Positions 26,749 through 33,194 of a stretch of DNA of 40,479 nt are shown piece by piece. How positions within the stretch are numbered: the stretch's first letter is position 1; each line of letters starts with the position of its first letter. Where the stretch lies: positions 259,570 through 300,048 of the forward strand of contig MFJV01000001.1 of assembly GCA_001780985.1 (NCBI GenBank), written 5' to 3'. The notes under the pieces are model-generated. The model was not told the DNA's origin, searched no databases, and saw only the letters and a list, made by a program, of their open reading frames with translations. This DNA is from Candidatus Gottesmanbacteria bacterium RIFCSPLOWO2_01_FULL_43_11b (lineage in GTDB: Bacteria > Patescibacteriota > Microgenomatia > UBA10105 > UBA927). A program made the position numbers and the translations under genes.

Positions 26749-28623
26749 TTACATCCGCTCAACCGTAGAAATCCCAAGAAGATAAAGTCCATTTTGAATA
26801 GTTTGAGCAGTTGCAGCTGTTAAAGCCAAACGGGCATTATTCCCTAAAATCGGATGTTTTTGATAAAACAGGTTAAATGCCTGTGCGAGATTAAAAAGAT
26901 ACGTACAGAGCATGTTCGGCGCAAACTCACGGGCTGCCTGACCAACTATTTCTGGGAAAAAGTTGATGAGACGAGCGATGGAACGCTCTTCGGCGTTAAA
27001 GCTCCAATCACCAAATTCCAAACTCCAAACAAATTCCAAATTTGAATGTTCCAAACGTTTAGTATTTGATGCTTTGTGTTTATTTGGTGCTTGATGCTTG
27101 AGGTTTGATGCTTCCGCTGCCTTGTGGAGCACGGATTTGCAACGCGCGTATGTGTAAAGCAGATAGGGCCCGGAATCACCGTCAAAACTTACCGATTCTT
27201 TTAGATCAAACGCAATTTCCTGTTTCGTCGAAACTTTAAGAAACGCATACTTTACTGCGGCAACCGCGCCCTTCTCCGCAATTTCATCCTGTTCCTCTTT
27301 GGTATATTTCGATTCATTTTGTTTTAATATCTCATAGATTGATTGCTTTGCTTCGTCAAGCAGCCACTCACCTAAAACAACGTTCCCACTCCTGCTGCTC
27401 ATTTTCCCTTCTTTGAGTCCTACCCAACCATAAATAAGATGATGTTCTTTTCCTTTTGTATCCGGAAACACTTGTTCTAACGCCTTAAAGATCACCTGGA
27501 AGTATCCGGTTTGTTCAGGACCAACCACATGAATGATTTGATCGGGACTATATTCATCAAATTGGAGCCTTCCAAGACCAATATCTTTCGCTTCATATGT
27601 GGCATTCCCTTCGCCTGTTATGAAAACTCTGTTGTGAAGACCCCATTTTTCTCCCGGAAAAACAACTGCTCCGTCGCTTTGCACAAATATGCCTTTCTTT
27701 AATGCCTCCTGAACATACTTTTTTCCGTTTTCATACACTTCACCCTCAAAATAATATCGATCATAGTGCGTTCCAACGCGCTTATATATACTTTCAAAAT
27801 AATCCAGACTCCATTTTCTTGTCTCCTGATACATCGGGTAAATCGAAGAGTCTTTGGCGTAAATTTTTTTATTGATCTCTCCTATTTCCCTCTTTGCACT
27901 CTCTTCATAATCTTTATGCCCATTTGCATACGCTTTTCCAAGGTATTCAATTTTTTCATCTAATGATTTCTTTTTTATTTCTTCAAACGTTTTATCTTTC
28001 AAAATTCCGTAGATACATTTGGCAATATGTAATCCAACATCTCCTTGATAATTAACCCTGATGACTTTATTTCCCGCCGACTCAAGGAGTCGGACAATAC
28101 TTTCGCCGGTTGAAATATTTCTCAAATGTCCTATATGAAACTGCTTATGCGTGTTTGGGTGAGCGAATTCTACCATAAGCTTTTTTCCGGTCTTCGTTTT
28201 AGCCGTTCCGAAGCGCTCTTTCTCTTTTAGCACTTCATCTATCTGATTGCCAAGTTTAGATTCGGTCAAGAAGAAGTTTATGAACCCCGGCGGCACGACT
28301 TCAACCCGGTCAATATCCTGTAATACGCTTTTTGCGGGAATCTGCGGAGATGCTTTTTGATATTGTTTATTTGTAATCTGATCTGGTATCTTACGTCTTA
28401 CATCTTTCATCTTCTCGTCTATAATCTTCTTAACCCATAGTGCTACGTCTACCGGCGATTTTTTAAGAGTCTTTGCAACCCTCATCGCAATATTGGTTGT
28501 ATACTCCCCGTGGTTGGGATCACCGGAAATTTCAACTTCGGGTTCAATATCTGTAACCCCAAATTCTTTGAGAATTTCCTTAAGTAGTTCGAAAAGATTT
28601 TGTCTCATGGTTTCTTCAATCAT
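26749..28623 (-). CDS. argS: Arginyl-tRNA synthetase with low-complexity insertion
   Basis: VEFAHPNTHKQFHIGHLRNISTGESIVRLLE; GLKEGKMSSRSGNVV. Confidence 0.96.
   Translation of the reverse strand: MIEETMRQNLFELLKEILKEFGVTDIEPEVEISGDPNHGEYTTNIAMRVAKTLKKSPVDVALWVKKIIDEKMKDVRRKIPDQITNKQYQKASPQIPAKSVLQDIDRVEVVPPGFINFFLTESKLGNQIDEVLKEKERFGTAKTKTGKKLMVEFAHPNTHKQFHIGHLRNISTGESIVRLLESAGNKVIRVNYQGDVGLHIAKCIYGILKDKTFEEIKKKSLDEKIEYLGKAYANGHKDYEESAKREIGEINKKIYAKDSSIYPMYQETRKWSLDYFESIYKRVGTHYDRYYFEGEVYENGKKYVQEALKKGIFVQSDGAVVFPGEKWGLHNRVFITGEGNATYEAKDIGLGRLQFDEYSPDQIIHVVGPEQTGYFQVIFKALEQVFPDTKGKEHHLIYGWVGLKEGKMSSRSGNVVLGEWLLDEAKQSIYEILKQNESKYTKEEQDEIAEKGAVAAVKYAFLKVSTKQEIAFDLKESVSFDGDSGPYLLYTYARCKSVLHKAAEASNLKHQAPNKHKASNTKRLEHSNLEFVWSLEFGDWSFNAEERSIARLINFFPEIVGQAAREFAPNMLCTYLFNLAQAFNLFYQKHPILGNNARLALTAATAQTIQNGLYLLGISTVERM
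27003..27113. repeat. CAAAT/TTTGG low-complexity imperfect palindrome inside argS
   Basis: ccaatcaccaaattccaaactccaaac...aaacgttt...tatttggtgcttgatgcttgaggtttgatg; encodes SNLKHQAPNKHKASNTKRLEHSNLEFVWSLEFGDWSF. Confidence 0.8.
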
Positions 28624-29540
28624 ACCAAACTCTTATTTTTTTTGTTTTCCGTAACAAGAACTACAATTCCACTTATGATAATAAACGCCCCAATCCATTG
28701 GTGTATTAAGAACCGTTCACCTGAGATAACTCCCAAAATTACACTTATGGCAATCGGTAACGTCACAAGGAGAGAAAATTGTTTAACTTCCATTCGTTTT
28801 AGCGCCGTATAGTAAAGCACGAGGGCTATTGCCGAAGCCCCCATACCCAAATATAATAATTTCAGCCAGTCATTCATTGATACGCCGCTAATTATATTCG
28901 TTATGTTTTCTTTATATAGAATAAACACTATCAAACTGTTAAATACACTAGCAACAGCAAAACGGTAAAAGGCAACTACCATCGATGAAAGTTCCCCCAG
29001 AAGTACCTTTCCGATAATAGTACAGGCACCCCAGAGTATTGCAGCAAGGAGTGAAGTTGAAATTCCGATCCAGAAACTCATACTCCAAGCGATATTGAAA
29101 TTTCCGCTACTTGTGACCAAAACGACTCCAAAAAGAATACAGACAGCAAGAATAAGGAAGCGCTTAGTTACTTTTTCACCAAGAAACCATACGGCAAAGA
29201 GAATTCCCAGGGGAATCTCGAGATTAACTAAGATTGTTGTCAGCGCAGCACCAATTTGACGAATCGCAACCACATTAAGCCATGAAGCTATCCCCGATCC
29301 GACTGTACCCAAGAGTAAAAGTCCGATCAACTGTTTCTTTGTAATAGATAGGTAAGACTTTTTCCATTTTCCAAAAATGAGCATAAATAGAAAAAGGAAC
29401 ACTGCGGCAAAGCTAAACCGGATCGCCACAAGAAGAAAACTGGGTACGGAAAAACTAATGAATTTTGTCACTACCGGGCTTACGCCCGAAATAAGATCGA
29501 ATGCCAATACTGACAGTAAACCAACTAACTGATTATTCAT
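28620..29540 (-). CDS. EamA/DMT-superfamily transporter
   Basis: ORF 306 aa, 10-TM pattern; LEIPLGILFAVWFLGEKVTKR and LPIAISVILGVISGERFLIHQWIGAFIIISGIV. Confidence 0.88.
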   Translation of the reverse strand: MNNQLVGLLSVLAFDLISGVSPVVTKFISFSVPSFLLVAIRFSFAAVFLFLFMLIFGKWKKSYLSITKKQLIGLLLLGTVGSGIASWLNVVAIRQIGAALTTILVNLEIPLGILFAVWFLGEKVTKRFLILAVCILFGVVLVTSSGNFNIAWSMSFWIGISTSLLAAILWGACTIIGKVLLGELSSMVVAFYRFAVASVFNSLIVFILYKENITNIISGVSMNDWLKLLYLGMGASAIALVLYYTALKRMEVKQFSLLVTLPIAISVILGVISGERFLIHQWIGAFIIISGIVVLVTENKKNKSLV

Positions 29541-29733
29541 ATTTTTTCTCCAACTTTTGTTTTACTGCCTTCTTAATTAATATTTTTTCAAGCAGACTTA
29601 CTTCAGAGCTTACCACAAACTCTCCCGCCTCATGTCCATGAAGTTCTATGGTCTTTTTAGGGTCAATACCTTTTTGAATGTCAGTTACAACACTTCCAGA
29701 TGGTATAAATATCATTTTCTCTTTCATACTCAC
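29533..29733 (-). CDS. Small protein of unknown function in arg operon
   Basis: ORF 66 aa overlapping both argG and the EamA gene. Confidence 0.6.
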   Translation of the reverse strand: MSMKEKMIFIPSGSVVTDIQKGIDPKKTIELHGHEAGEFVVSSEVSLLEKILIKKAVKQKLEKKYE

Positions 29734-30989
29734 CCACCCCCTTTCGCATGTACTTGATTTGCCAGTTTCATCTGAAGCGTATATACCTCGATAAAACCTG
29801 CGCTTGCATTAACGTTATATTTATAGCCTCCTGTTGTCGTAAATGATGCGTGGTGCATGGCAAAGGGAGAGGTCATCGCAACCACGGTTACCTTGCCTTT
29901 GTAGAGTTTGACTGTCACTATACCGGTCACTTTTTGATTCACCCAGTCGTTGAAGTTGTTAATCGCTCCCATCACCGGATCAAACCATTTCGCACCATAA
30001 CAAAGATACGCCCATTTGACGTCGAGCTGATTTTTCAGTTCGTTAAGTTCACGCGTCGAAACGTACTGCTCGAGTGCTTTGTGAGCAGTAATAATCACAT
30101 GACCGGCCGGAAGCTCATACACTCCACGGTCTTTGAGGCCTATCAAACGATCCTCGACCAAATGGACCACACCGACACCATGCTTGCCTGCGATCTTATT
30201 TAAGGTCATAATCAAGATCGCAAGTTTCATTTTTTTGTTGTTTAACGCGACCGGCATGCCCTTATTGAACGTAATTTTTATGAATTCTTCCTTATCCGGT
30301 GCGTTTTTGGCGAGAGTGTAGGTTGTCAAAAACTTCTCGACTTTGGGAATAAACTGGGGATCCTCGATCTCCCCGCCTTCCCACGTCATCCCCCACATGT
30401 TGTCATCGACACTGTAGGGAAAGTCCAAACTCGCAGGAACGGGAATACCGTGCTTTTGGGCGTATTTAATCTCATTATTTCTATCCATATCCCATTCACG
30501 CACCGGAGCGATGATCTTTATCTCTGGATTTAATGTGAGCATGTAGCCTTCCAAACGTACCTGATCATTCCCTTTACCCGTACAACCGTGTGCAATTGCG
30601 TCCGCACCGACTTTTTGAGCAACTTCAACTGCCTTGGCAGCTGTGATCGCGCGACCGATTGGGGTAGAAAGATGATAATCTCCTTGATAGGCGGCATTTG
30701 CCTTGATTCCGTATGAAATATACTTTTCGGCAAATTCATCCTTCACATCCAAAACGATCGCCTTCTTTGCACCAAATTTGAGCGCTTTTTTTTGAATTGC
30801 GACAAGGTCATCGCCCTGCTGGCCCAAATCCATAGTTAAGGTCACCACATCGGCCTTATACGTATCTTGTATCCACTTTAGCATGACCGACGTATCCAGC
30901 CCTCCGCTATAAAGCAAGAGAACTTTTTTGACTTCTCCCTTTTTTGCCTCATGTGAAGCTACTTTGATATAGTTTGTATGTGTTTCCAT
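29730..30989 (-). CDS. argG: Argininosuccinate synthase
   Basis: KVLLLYSGGLDTSVMLKWI; STPIGRAITAAKAVEVAQKVGADAIAHGCTGKGNDQVR. Confidence 0.97.
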   Translation of the reverse strand: METHTNYIKVASHEAKKGEVKKVLLLYSGGLDTSVMLKWIQDTYKADVVTLTMDLGQQGDDLVAIQKKALKFGAKKAIVLDVKDEFAEKYISYGIKANAAYQGDYHLSTPIGRAITAAKAVEVAQKVGADAIAHGCTGKGNDQVRLEGYMLTLNPEIKIIAPVREWDMDRNNEIKYAQKHGIPVPASLDFPYSVDDNMWGMTWEGGEIEDPQFIPKVEKFLTTYTLAKNAPDKEEFIKITFNKGMPVALNNKKMKLAILIMTLNKIAGKHGVGVVHLVEDRLIGLKDRGVYELPAGHVIITAHKALEQYVSTRELNELKNQLDVKWAYLCYGAKWFDPVMGAINNFNDWVNQKVTGIVTVKLYKGKVTVVAMTSPFAMHHASFTTTGGYKYNVNASAGFIEVYTLQMKLANQVHAKGGG

Positions 30990-32398
30990 AACAACTCCTG
31001 TGCATGTTCTTTTTCTTTTTGCTTTTGCAAAAGCCAGGTTTTGTGACTTGAAAGCTTCTTCTTGAGTTTCTTTAACGCCGTTTTCATGCTGTTTTTTCCC
31101 GGTCCTCCAAAGGATTTGGTCAGAGAAATAACCTTTTTTGGATCAAGATCAAGCTTGTCGCTACCCGTTTTAACAAGCTGTTCAACTTTCACTTTCGCCT
31201 CACGCATTGGCATGTGCGAGTTCTGTATGATTTGTTCCATAACCGTCGTGGCTGCTATAAAACCCTTGTGGCACCATTTCTCCATTACGTCAGCATTGAC
31301 TGTCATGGTTTCCAAAACTCCCGCAAGAACTACCGGTGCGAGCTTACACTCATTGATAAGATCCATGATGATGTATTTGGTCCACTGGGAATCGCGGTTG
31401 TAGCCGATGAAATTTGCTTTTCCGATAGCAAGCAAACTCACGAGTTGCCCCTGCGCAAACGCGGTTTTCCCTTTGATCACTTCCAGAGGATCCGGATTTT
31501 TCTTTTGGGGCATGATGGAACTTCCCGTGCTAAATGCATCCGCTAGCTTGATCATGTCAAATTCAGAAGTTGCCAGAAGAATCAGTGTTTCGGCAATAAG
31601 CGACAGGTGATTCATAAGAATCGTGATCGCAAAAGCAAAATCTGCCTCCGGTTCCCAACGGTTGGTGATGGCATCCATGGAATTTAGATCCGGCCCGTCA
31701 AAACCCAAAAGCTCGGCCGTAAGCTTTTTGTTAATCGGAAAGGACGTGCCATAAGCCACGCTATTGCCTAATGGGCTTTGATTGTGAAGTTTATACCAGC
31801 CTTCGAAACGCTCTATGTCGCGGATTATCATCGTCGCAAACCCGGCAAGAACATGCCCAAATGTCGTCACCATCGCATGCTGATGGTGGGTAAATCCCGG
31901 AAACGATACTGCTTTGTATATTTCTGCAAGTTTTATTAACGTTTGAGCTAATCCAGTGCCATTACTTACATACATAAGCATCTGATCTTTGAGGTATAAC
32001 TTCATGTCTGTTACAATTTGATCGTTCCTGCTACGGGCGGTGTGGAGCTTTCCGGCAACCTCAATCCCTAATTTTTTCGTGAGCCATGATTCGATGTTTG
32101 TGTGGACGTCTTCTTTACTCGGTTCAAGATGAAATTTACCTTTTATAACGAGCTTTTCTAATTCTAGGAGTCCAGCAAGAATTTTCCCCGCGTCAGCCAC
32201 CGGAATAATGCCTGTTTTAGCCAACATGACACAGTGGGCTTTATCCACCCACACATCGTATGGAAGGAGCACAGCATCTGCCGGTGGCACACTAACAACG
32301 TCCCTTCCGGCAGTAAATGCGAGTACTGCTTCTGAGGGTTGCTGGTTAAACGCCGTACCCCATAATTTATTTATCTGTTTTTTCATAGGTTTTGCCAT
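30959..32398 (-). CDS. argH: Argininosuccinate lyase
   Basis: TARSRNDQIVTDMKLYL, GSSIMPQKKNPDPLEVIKGK; start ATG 32398 because the ORF extension to 32446 translates the terminator hairpin. Confidence 0.96.
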   Translation of the reverse strand: MAKPMKKQINKLWGTAFNQQPSEAVLAFTAGRDVVSVPPADAVLLPYDVWVDKAHCVMLAKTGIIPVADAGKILAGLLELEKLVIKGKFHLEPSKEDVHTNIESWLTKKLGIEVAGKLHTARSRNDQIVTDMKLYLKDQMLMYVSNGTGLAQTLIKLAEIYKAVSFPGFTHHQHAMVTTFGHVLAGFATMIIRDIERFEGWYKLHNQSPLGNSVAYGTSFPINKKLTAELLGFDGPDLNSMDAITNRWEPEADFAFAITILMNHLSLIAETLILLATSEFDMIKLADAFSTGSSIMPQKKNPDPLEVIKGKTAFAQGQLVSLLAIGKANFIGYNRDSQWTKYIIMDLINECKLAPVVLAGVLETMTVNADVMEKWCHKGFIAATTVMEQIIQNSHMPMREAKVKVEQLVKTGSDKLDLDPKKVISLTKSFGGPGKNSMKTALKKLKKKLSSHKTWLLQKQKEKEHAQELLWKHIQTISK

Positions 32399-32399
32399 C

Positions 32400-32451
32400 A
32401 AAAAATCCCCTTGACCCTCGTACCCTAAAGAGGGTATGAGGACCAAAGGGA
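32400..32451 (-). terminator. Leader intrinsic terminator of the T-box-like element
   Basis: CCCTTTGGTCCTCATACCCT-CTTT-AGGGTACGAGGGTCAAGGGG then ATTTTTT. Confidence 0.85.
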
Positions 32452-32640
32452 CTTTCCGTCAGCTGACGGATGGTGGTGCCACCCTTCTTCCTAACCAAGC
32501 GTCCTTTAGAACGCAAAAATCTCTGTGTCAGCCTTGACAGAGTTTGGCTAGCTCGTTTGGTGTTTCTTACTTTCCCACTTCGCTTAAGCTTCGCGGGATT
32601 TCTTCGGAAACTGCCTCCCCATCTCGAATGGATCACAGGC
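32400..32640 (-). promoter_or_regulatory. T-box riboswitch-like leader upstream of argH
   Basis: Minus strand AAGGGTGGCACCACC (32475-32486 core) followed by GTCCCTT, upstream hairpins, and an intrinsic terminator ending in T6. Confidence 0.82.
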
Positions 32641-32684
32641 TATTTAATTGTAGGTTAGTAATTTACTACACTATTTTTCCCTTG

Positions 32685-33194
32685 TCAAGTTCTTAATGAA
32701 TTTTCATTGGAAAGACGCACAAAATCAATAATGCGTAAAAAGAGAGTTCCGGTGGTGTACACGGTTGTTTTATCCGTACTCATTACACGAACTAAGGTGG
32801 TAATTGCTCTGTTTTCTGCCTCAACAGATTCGACTTGCGCAACTGTTAGGATCGTTTTGTTAATAGGTATAGCCATGTGGTAGTCTAACTCTGAGTGTTT
32901 TAACACTATCATTTTGTCGAACTGTTGATCTGCCACAACCGCCGCCGCGGTGCCACCAACCAAATCAATAAGTTTTGCAGTAAATCCTCCATTGACAATC
33001 CCATTCCATCCTTGGTTGATACAGGAAGTTGTCATTTCAAGAACGAGGGTTGGCGGAATATTATCTCCAAACCATACCGCTTCTGGCATATTAATATAAT
33101 CCGAAAGGTATGCTGCACTACTCGAAATAAGAAGATTGTTTATACGCTTGCTCCCAAGCTCAGCAATGCGCTTTCCTCCTTCGTATGGATTCAT
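32685..33194 (-). CDS. Hotdog-fold thioesterase-like protein
   Basis: GWNGIVNGGFTAKLIDLVGGTAAAVVADQ resembles PaaI/4HBT pattern. Confidence 0.7.
   Translation of the reverse strand: MNPYEGGKRIAELGSKRINNLLISSSAAYLSDYINMPEAVWFGDNIPPTLVLEMTTSCINQGWNGIVNGGFTAKLIDLVGGTAAAVVADQQFDKMIVLKHSELDYHMAIPINKTILTVAQVESVEAENRAITTLVRVMSTDKTTVYTTGTLFLRIIDFVRLSNENSLRT

Follow-up and report, generated by a model that had tools for sequence, protein, structure and literature searches.

What signal controls the arginine genes of Candidatus Gottesmanbacteria bacterium RIFCSPLOWO2_01_FULL_43_11b? The question is raised by the leader that precedes argH on the minus strand of a 40,479-nucleotide stretch of its genome (contig MFJV01000001.1, positions 259,570 to 300,048), here called the window and numbered from its first letter. 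An earlier note, made from the letters of the window, had described this leader as a T-box-like riboswitch controlling argH and argG. We find it highly likely that the leader is a T-box that senses tRNA-Arg(UCG) and controls argH-argG-(EamA)-argS, mainly by transcription antitermination, and it would very probably turn the arginine genes on when tRNA-Arg is uncharged. The parts of this reading that come from sequence and comparison are the promoter, the helices, their covariation, the agreement between specifier and genes, the matching tRNA with its discriminator, and the overlapping terminator.

Antiterminator and terminator share one strand

The 3' part of the leader holds two alternative folds:

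32446..32486, minus strand: T-box antiterminator, with the A1 helix AAGGG/CCCUU, the bulge UGGCACC (N = C), the A2 helix AC/GU and the capping hairpin CCGUCAGCUGACGG
32400..32452, minus strand: intrinsic terminator, then U6; its CCCUU is common to terminator and antiterminator

The motif proposed in the earlier note is present exactly, as AAGGGTGGCACCACC (RNA AAGGGUGGCACCACC) at 32486-32472 of the minus strand, followed by GTCCCTT at 32452-32446. Within the bulge, UGGC (32481-32478) is able to pair with the 3' NCCA of a tRNA, and the U6 of the terminator (32405-32400) lies directly upstream of the argH start codon ATG at 32398. The two folds had been held to be mutually exclusive. Indeed, the CCCUU strand is used in both computed folds, and the A1 helix covaries in relatives; it is AAGCG/CGCUU in L131, L132, L134, L137 and L145. 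Folding energies are -31.2 kcal/mol for the terminator and -14.3 kcal/mol for the antiterminator element alone, and therefore off is the expected default state without tRNA. The full leader was more stable than 200 of 200 shuffled sequences (z = -4.2).

The 3' arm of the terminator contains a Shine-Dalgarno-like AAGGGG (32412-32407), which lies 8 nt upstream of ATG 32398; because of this position a translational contribution is possible. Control might even be dual or mainly translational, as likened to the actinobacterial short-stem T-boxes, with the hairpin hiding AAGGGG and the tRNA mostly freeing translation. This would suit the 20 of 76 T-box-like sites (a few chance matches included) at which the open reading frame (ORF) starts at most 4 nt from the terminator U-tract. 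However, a hairpin of -31 kcal/mol followed by U6 is a textbook intrinsic terminator, and sequestration by the hairpin is not conserved, argH starting about 150-210 nt past the T-box in the close relatives L118-L120. We regard dual or mainly translational control as unlikely and favor transcription antitermination. Overlap of terminator and ribosome site, with the ORF at most 4 nt from the U-tract, was seen at L069, L072, L035, L082, L105, L106 and others.

Stem I carries an arginine codon

The specifier lies in Stem I, at the 5' side of the leader:

32613..32640, minus strand: ultrashort Stem I of 28 nt, GCC-UGU-GA-UCCAU-[UCGAG]-AUGGG-GA-GGC
32624..32626, minus strand: specifier codon CGA (Arg) in the apical loop, with the conserved purine G (32623) next

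This Stem I is built from a kink-turn (K-turn; GCC-UGU-GA / GA-GGC), the 5-bp helix UCCAU/AUGGG and the 5-nt apical loop UCGAG. The earlier note had rightly seen that it is short and had left the specifier unassigned; beyond shortness, the element is a hairpin with an apical-loop specifier, and that specifier is CGA. Specifiers were searched for mechanically, with the Stem II motif and the K-turn geometry as anchors and no codon supplied, a procedure that replaced an overly permissive, fully automatic one. CGA-G or AGA-G ranked first in most leaders yielding a candidate (exceptions L127, L139 and L142), a count that is not to be taken as a probability, as the leaders are kin. L106, L126, L127, L131, L132, L139, L142, L143 and L144 were missed or mis-ranked by the search and gave CGA-G or AGA-G when read by eye; L146 is excepted from all assignments. 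Across the relatives, the codon and its trailing G stay constant while the adjoining Stem I helix changes in compensation (CCAU/AUGG, GGUG/CACC, GAGG/CCUC, GGGG/CCCC, GGAG/CUCC and GAAG/CUUC).

The genome encodes tRNA-Arg with the anticodons UCG, CCG, GCG, CCU and, after correction of an ARAGORN miscall, UCU; a tRNA-Pyl(CUA) called by ARAGORN at L037 1421-1494 (G000:37115-37187) was rejected, its canonical fold being tRNA-Arg(UCU) with G73. The anticodon UCG is exactly complementary to CGA, and the discriminator G73 pairs with the C of UGGC. The earlier note had correctly remarked that tRNA-Arg(CCU) carries A73 and had predicted a different ligand with G73, a description that tRNA-Arg(UCG) matches. 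The same Stem I geometry is found elsewhere in the phylum, with AUC upstream of ileS, GUC of valS, GAC of aspS, GGC of glyS and CCG of proS, and it predicts the correct amino acid for these Ile, Val, Asp, Gly and Pro leaders. One aspS leader (L084) has the specifier AAC (Asn), which would fit an aspartyl-tRNA synthetase that charges tRNA-Asn too.

The leader is conserved with covariation before arginine genes

We aligned the leader of the window with argH-upstream leaders of relatives (seven leaders, structure of 34 base pairs). In this alignment 89.0% of cells were paired, compared to 41-52% when the partners were slid by 1-3 columns. Two-sided changes occurred in 19 of the 34 pairs, and compensatory changes in 5 of the 6 helices counted. 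A covariance model built from the seven leaders, R1, had matches in 78 of the 374 class genomes, of which about 31 were below E 1e-15 and belonged to several families, while a control with 80 named ArgH loci of other phyla (667 kb) gave nothing better than E 0.079. According to NCBIfam, the genes behind R1-matched leaders include argF (L124), argG (L125, L132, L134, L139 and L143), argH (L128 and L138) and argC (L145). The comparison of relatives, which the earlier note had proposed as a check, thus revealed that the antiterminator/terminator pair is conserved with covariation before arginine genes. Together with the specifier CGA and argH-argG downstream, this supports the T-box on arginine genes suggested there.

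Conservation is seen in the RNA helices, the specifier and the T-box bulge, and not in a peptide. This speaks against classical attenuation by an arginine-codon leader peptide, for which a 12-codon ORF (MGRQFPKKSREA) with two Arg codons, beginning within Stem I at 32622, could be cited. No Shine-Dalgarno sequence lies ahead of this ORF and the corresponding frame of L088 is without an Arg codon, so that we consider such a mechanism extremely unlikely compared to the T-box.

The relatives form a graded series from specifier loop to apical loop, with an Arg codon plus G throughout. In L106 the specifier loop is of the classical kind, with a loop E (AGUA/GAA), and carries CGA-G; in L112, L032/L136, L124, L125 and L128 the upper hairpin is short and a side bulge ends with CGA-G; and in the window, L088-L090, L123, L135 and L141 nothing stands above the specifier, which is in the apical loop. 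Judged from these sequences, the series looks like a step-wise reduction of Stem I. Such reduction raises the possibility of a decayed T-box that has lost switching, given that Stem I, the interdigitated double T-loop motif (IDTM) and Stem IIA/B are reduced and the Rfam score is low. This is very unlikely, though, as the identical reduced form is kept with compensatory changes across several genera, specifier, bulge base and tRNA agree, and promoter and terminator are intact.

Arg-specific T-boxes (CGA/AGA) were also seen upstream of ORFs in L123, L126, L127, L129, L131, L133 and L136. Several of these ORFs are without a Pfam match, and some adjoin a metallo-beta-lactamase-like gene; an arginine-related function is predicted for them from the specifier.

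Stem II and Stem III

Between Stem I and the antiterminator the leader contains the following elements:

32562..32611, minus strand: Stem II with S-turn; helix GUUUC/GAAAC, internal loop GAAGAAA / AAGUA, inner helix UCCCGC/GUGGGA
32552..32561, minus strand: 10-nt linker ACCAAACGAG, an RRRNG-type motif upstream of Stem III, too short for a Stem IIA/B pseudoknot
32491..32551, minus strand: Stem III, outer helix CUAGCCAA/UUGGUUAG around two hairpins
32515..32542, minus strand: terminator-like hairpin inside Stem III, CUCUGU-CAAGGCUGAC-ACAGAG, then AUUUUU

The lower helix of Stem II has two-sided changes in 6 of 6 pairs, around a GAARAAA/AAGUA core that is the S-turn sequence. Judged by motif and spacing, none of the arginine leaders has a Stem IIA/B pseudoknot with F-box, and their Stem II-III linker is RRRNG-like and about 3-12 nt long; by the same measure, 41 of 54 other leaders from this phylum carry an F-box-like motif. 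The Stem III hairpin of the arginine leaders keeps its loop, GUCAAGGC...AUAC, on a variable stem. Of 77 leaders, 31 have a terminator-like hairpin with a U-tract in Stem III, on the 5' side of the antiterminator, versus 2.2 +/- 1.3 in shuffles, a control that underestimates hairpins of structured RNA. We rejected a pairing between CAAGG of the Stem III loop and the CCCUU strand, since the loop is constant even where A1 is AAGCG/CGCUU.

T-boxes are common across the phylum

Several observations weigh against the T-box reading. A scan with the Rfam T-box model (RF00230, gathering cut-off 93 bits), named in the earlier note as a check, did not bear it out: the leader scored 18.0 bits (E 0.061, 401-base region), which taken alone is no support for T-box identity. 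The leader of the window is also among the seven rows building R1, and its own R1 score is hence not independent. The pre-terminator RNA without tRNA favors a fold other than the antiterminator, which fits a default-off switch and is not proof of one. Finally, the IDTM and the IIA/B pseudoknot, which are important in studied T-boxes, are absent from the leader.

With regard to the low score, the Rfam model under-detects the patescibacterial lineage rather than matching at random. At E 0.001 it matched in 127 of 380 genomes sampled across the phylum, 13 of the 380 reaching the cut-off; among 14 control genomes it matched at this threshold only in Bacillus, Lactococcus, Corynebacterium, Thermus and Deinobacterium, all in groups with known T-boxes. 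Matches were present in 44 of 59 relatives, and the host genome has two clearer ones, at 78291 (80.5 bits) and at 166928 (33.4 bits), the latter preceding csaA-like and proS genes. The earlier note had called a T-box in a genome of the Candidate Phyla Radiation (CPR) notable; a T-box in such a genome it appears to be, although T-boxes turn out to be common across the phylum. The argHG leader is a member of a large overlooked set of stripped-down CPR T-boxes. In 16 named argH loci of Firmicutes and similar bacteria, no T-box above the Rfam cut-off was found. Sub-threshold Rfam matches to GA-cis (21 bits), Flavi SL6, SAM-II and ZNRD1-AS1 were at chance level and were discarded.

Further elements were observed alongside. 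The host genome has a T-box-like element with the altered bulge UGGCACA (L245, G000:438091-438176, minus strand) that ends in a terminator upstream of an ORF starting MNHEFQFVTAIHGNE. T-boxes with a UAC (Tyr) specifier occur at L001 1810-1881 (G000 ~78600-78672), L011, L013, L017, L018, L019, L024 and L026, with a tRNA-Tyr(GUA) gene or a tRNA-Tyr-like element within a few hundred nt downstream and, past it, a methyltransferase-like or unknown ORF. The tRNA-Tyr-like element (host genome, L024, L026) has kept the acceptor and T arm and lost the anticodon arm. Such a Tyr T-box may regulate the very tRNA that it senses, or a pseudo-tRNA.

Promoter and downstream genes

Promoter, leader, argH, argG, a transporter gene and argS follow each other between 32688 and 26749 of the minus strand:

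32660..32688, minus strand: sigma-70-like promoter TTGACA-17-TAAATT, predicted from sequence; transcription start ~32653
30959..32398, minus strand: argH, argininosuccinate lyase (PF00206); start at ATG 32398 or a later in-frame ATG
29730..30989, minus strand: argG, argininosuccinate synthase (PF00764, PF20979)
28620..29540, minus strand: EamA-family transporter (PF00892), same gene run
26749..28623, minus strand: argS, arginyl-tRNA synthetase (PF00750, PF05746, PF03485)

A block TTGACA...TGTAGTAAAKT is found at the equivalent position in L088, L089 and L090. The leader is about 255 nt long, and its upstream end, at the promoter, lies slightly outside the interval 32400-32640 assigned to it in the earlier note. 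The host genome is a single contig of 1.02 Mb, members of the same phylum having about 0.5-2 Mb, and a search for ribosomal protein L30 in it found none. A 1.02 Mb genome without ribosomal protein L30 is consistent with the Candidate Phyla Radiation (Patescibacteria).

Proposed mechanism and relation to known T-boxes

During synthesis of the leader, the K-turn would fold Stem I onto the S-turn of Stem II, and the anticodon UCG would meet the codon CGA in the apical loop UCGAG. With an uncharged tRNA, the free 3' end G73-C-C-A would pair with the bulge UGGC and hold the AAGGG/CCCUU antiterminator, and polymerase would read through into argH-argG-EamA-argS. With a charged tRNA, the terminator, by far the more stable fold, would form and transcription would stop upstream of argH. 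We infer tRNA binding and switching by analogy with the T-box family, and likewise infer the direction of the switch and function without contact to the tRNA elbow.

Class I T-boxes (Bacillus subtilis tyrS type, RF00230) resemble the leader of the window in transcriptional antitermination, the UGGN bulge, the Stem II S-turn and a CCCUU common to antiterminator and terminator. However, they have a long Stem I with a distal IDTM, an internal-loop specifier and IIA/B, all of which this leader lacks, its Stem I ending at the specifier. Class III T-boxes (Nocardia farcinica ileS type; PMC10482949) share a short Stem I without IDTM, the K-turn and the Stem II S-turn, and have an apical-loop specifier of 5-6 nt, as does the present leader with its 5-nt loop UCGAG on a 28-nt hairpin. 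In contrast to this leader, with its intrinsic terminator (SD-like AAGGGG, that is Shine-Dalgarno-like, within) and no IIA/B, they have IIA/B and are mostly translational; the composite Stem III and the arginine specificity in a probable CPR genome further set the leader apart. The intermediates L124, L125, L128 and L136 share the side-bulge specifier and the lack of an IDTM with Class IV (Actinomyces odontolyticus ileS type). This class, like Class III, is described as mostly translational (PMC10482949), whereas these intermediates precede intrinsic terminators. In Clostridioides difficile, a member of a different phylum, T-boxes are known to control the same genes, those for argininosuccinate synthase and lyase (PMC11477304).

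The variant joins features not described together in the open-access literature searched, namely a Class III-like Stem I, an S-turn without IIA/B, a transcription terminator and a terminator-like hairpin within Stem III. Tentatively, and with more doubt than confidence, the patescibacterial arginine T-boxes might be set apart as a fifth architectural class: transcriptional, with an apical or side-bulge specifier, no elbow contact and Stem II docking without IIA/B. The Stem III hairpin (GUCAAGGC...AUAC loop, U-tract) might in that case serve as a pause site or as a first-stage terminator, giving more time for the tRNA to be captured and so taking over from the IDTM.

A 2013 survey found T-boxes limited to Firmicutes, Actinobacteria, Chloroflexi, Deinococcus-Thermus and Geobacter, and left undecided whether they arose in Firmicutes and then spread or are ancestral (PMC3766115). 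We found no report of T-boxes in CPR/Patescibacteria in the open-access literature, subscription literature and TBDB lying outside this search. With about one third of the sampled phylum genomes having T-box matches, nearly all below the Rfam cut-off, the question of origin becomes testable on a much wider sample. According to a review, transcriptional T-boxes generally require a long Stem I whose IDTM binds the tRNA elbow (PMC7583486); a natural exception to this would be a transcriptional leader whose Stem I has 28 nt. Moreover, by the rule linking specifier and gene, unknown genes can be given an amino-acid function in lineages where scarcely any genetics exists.
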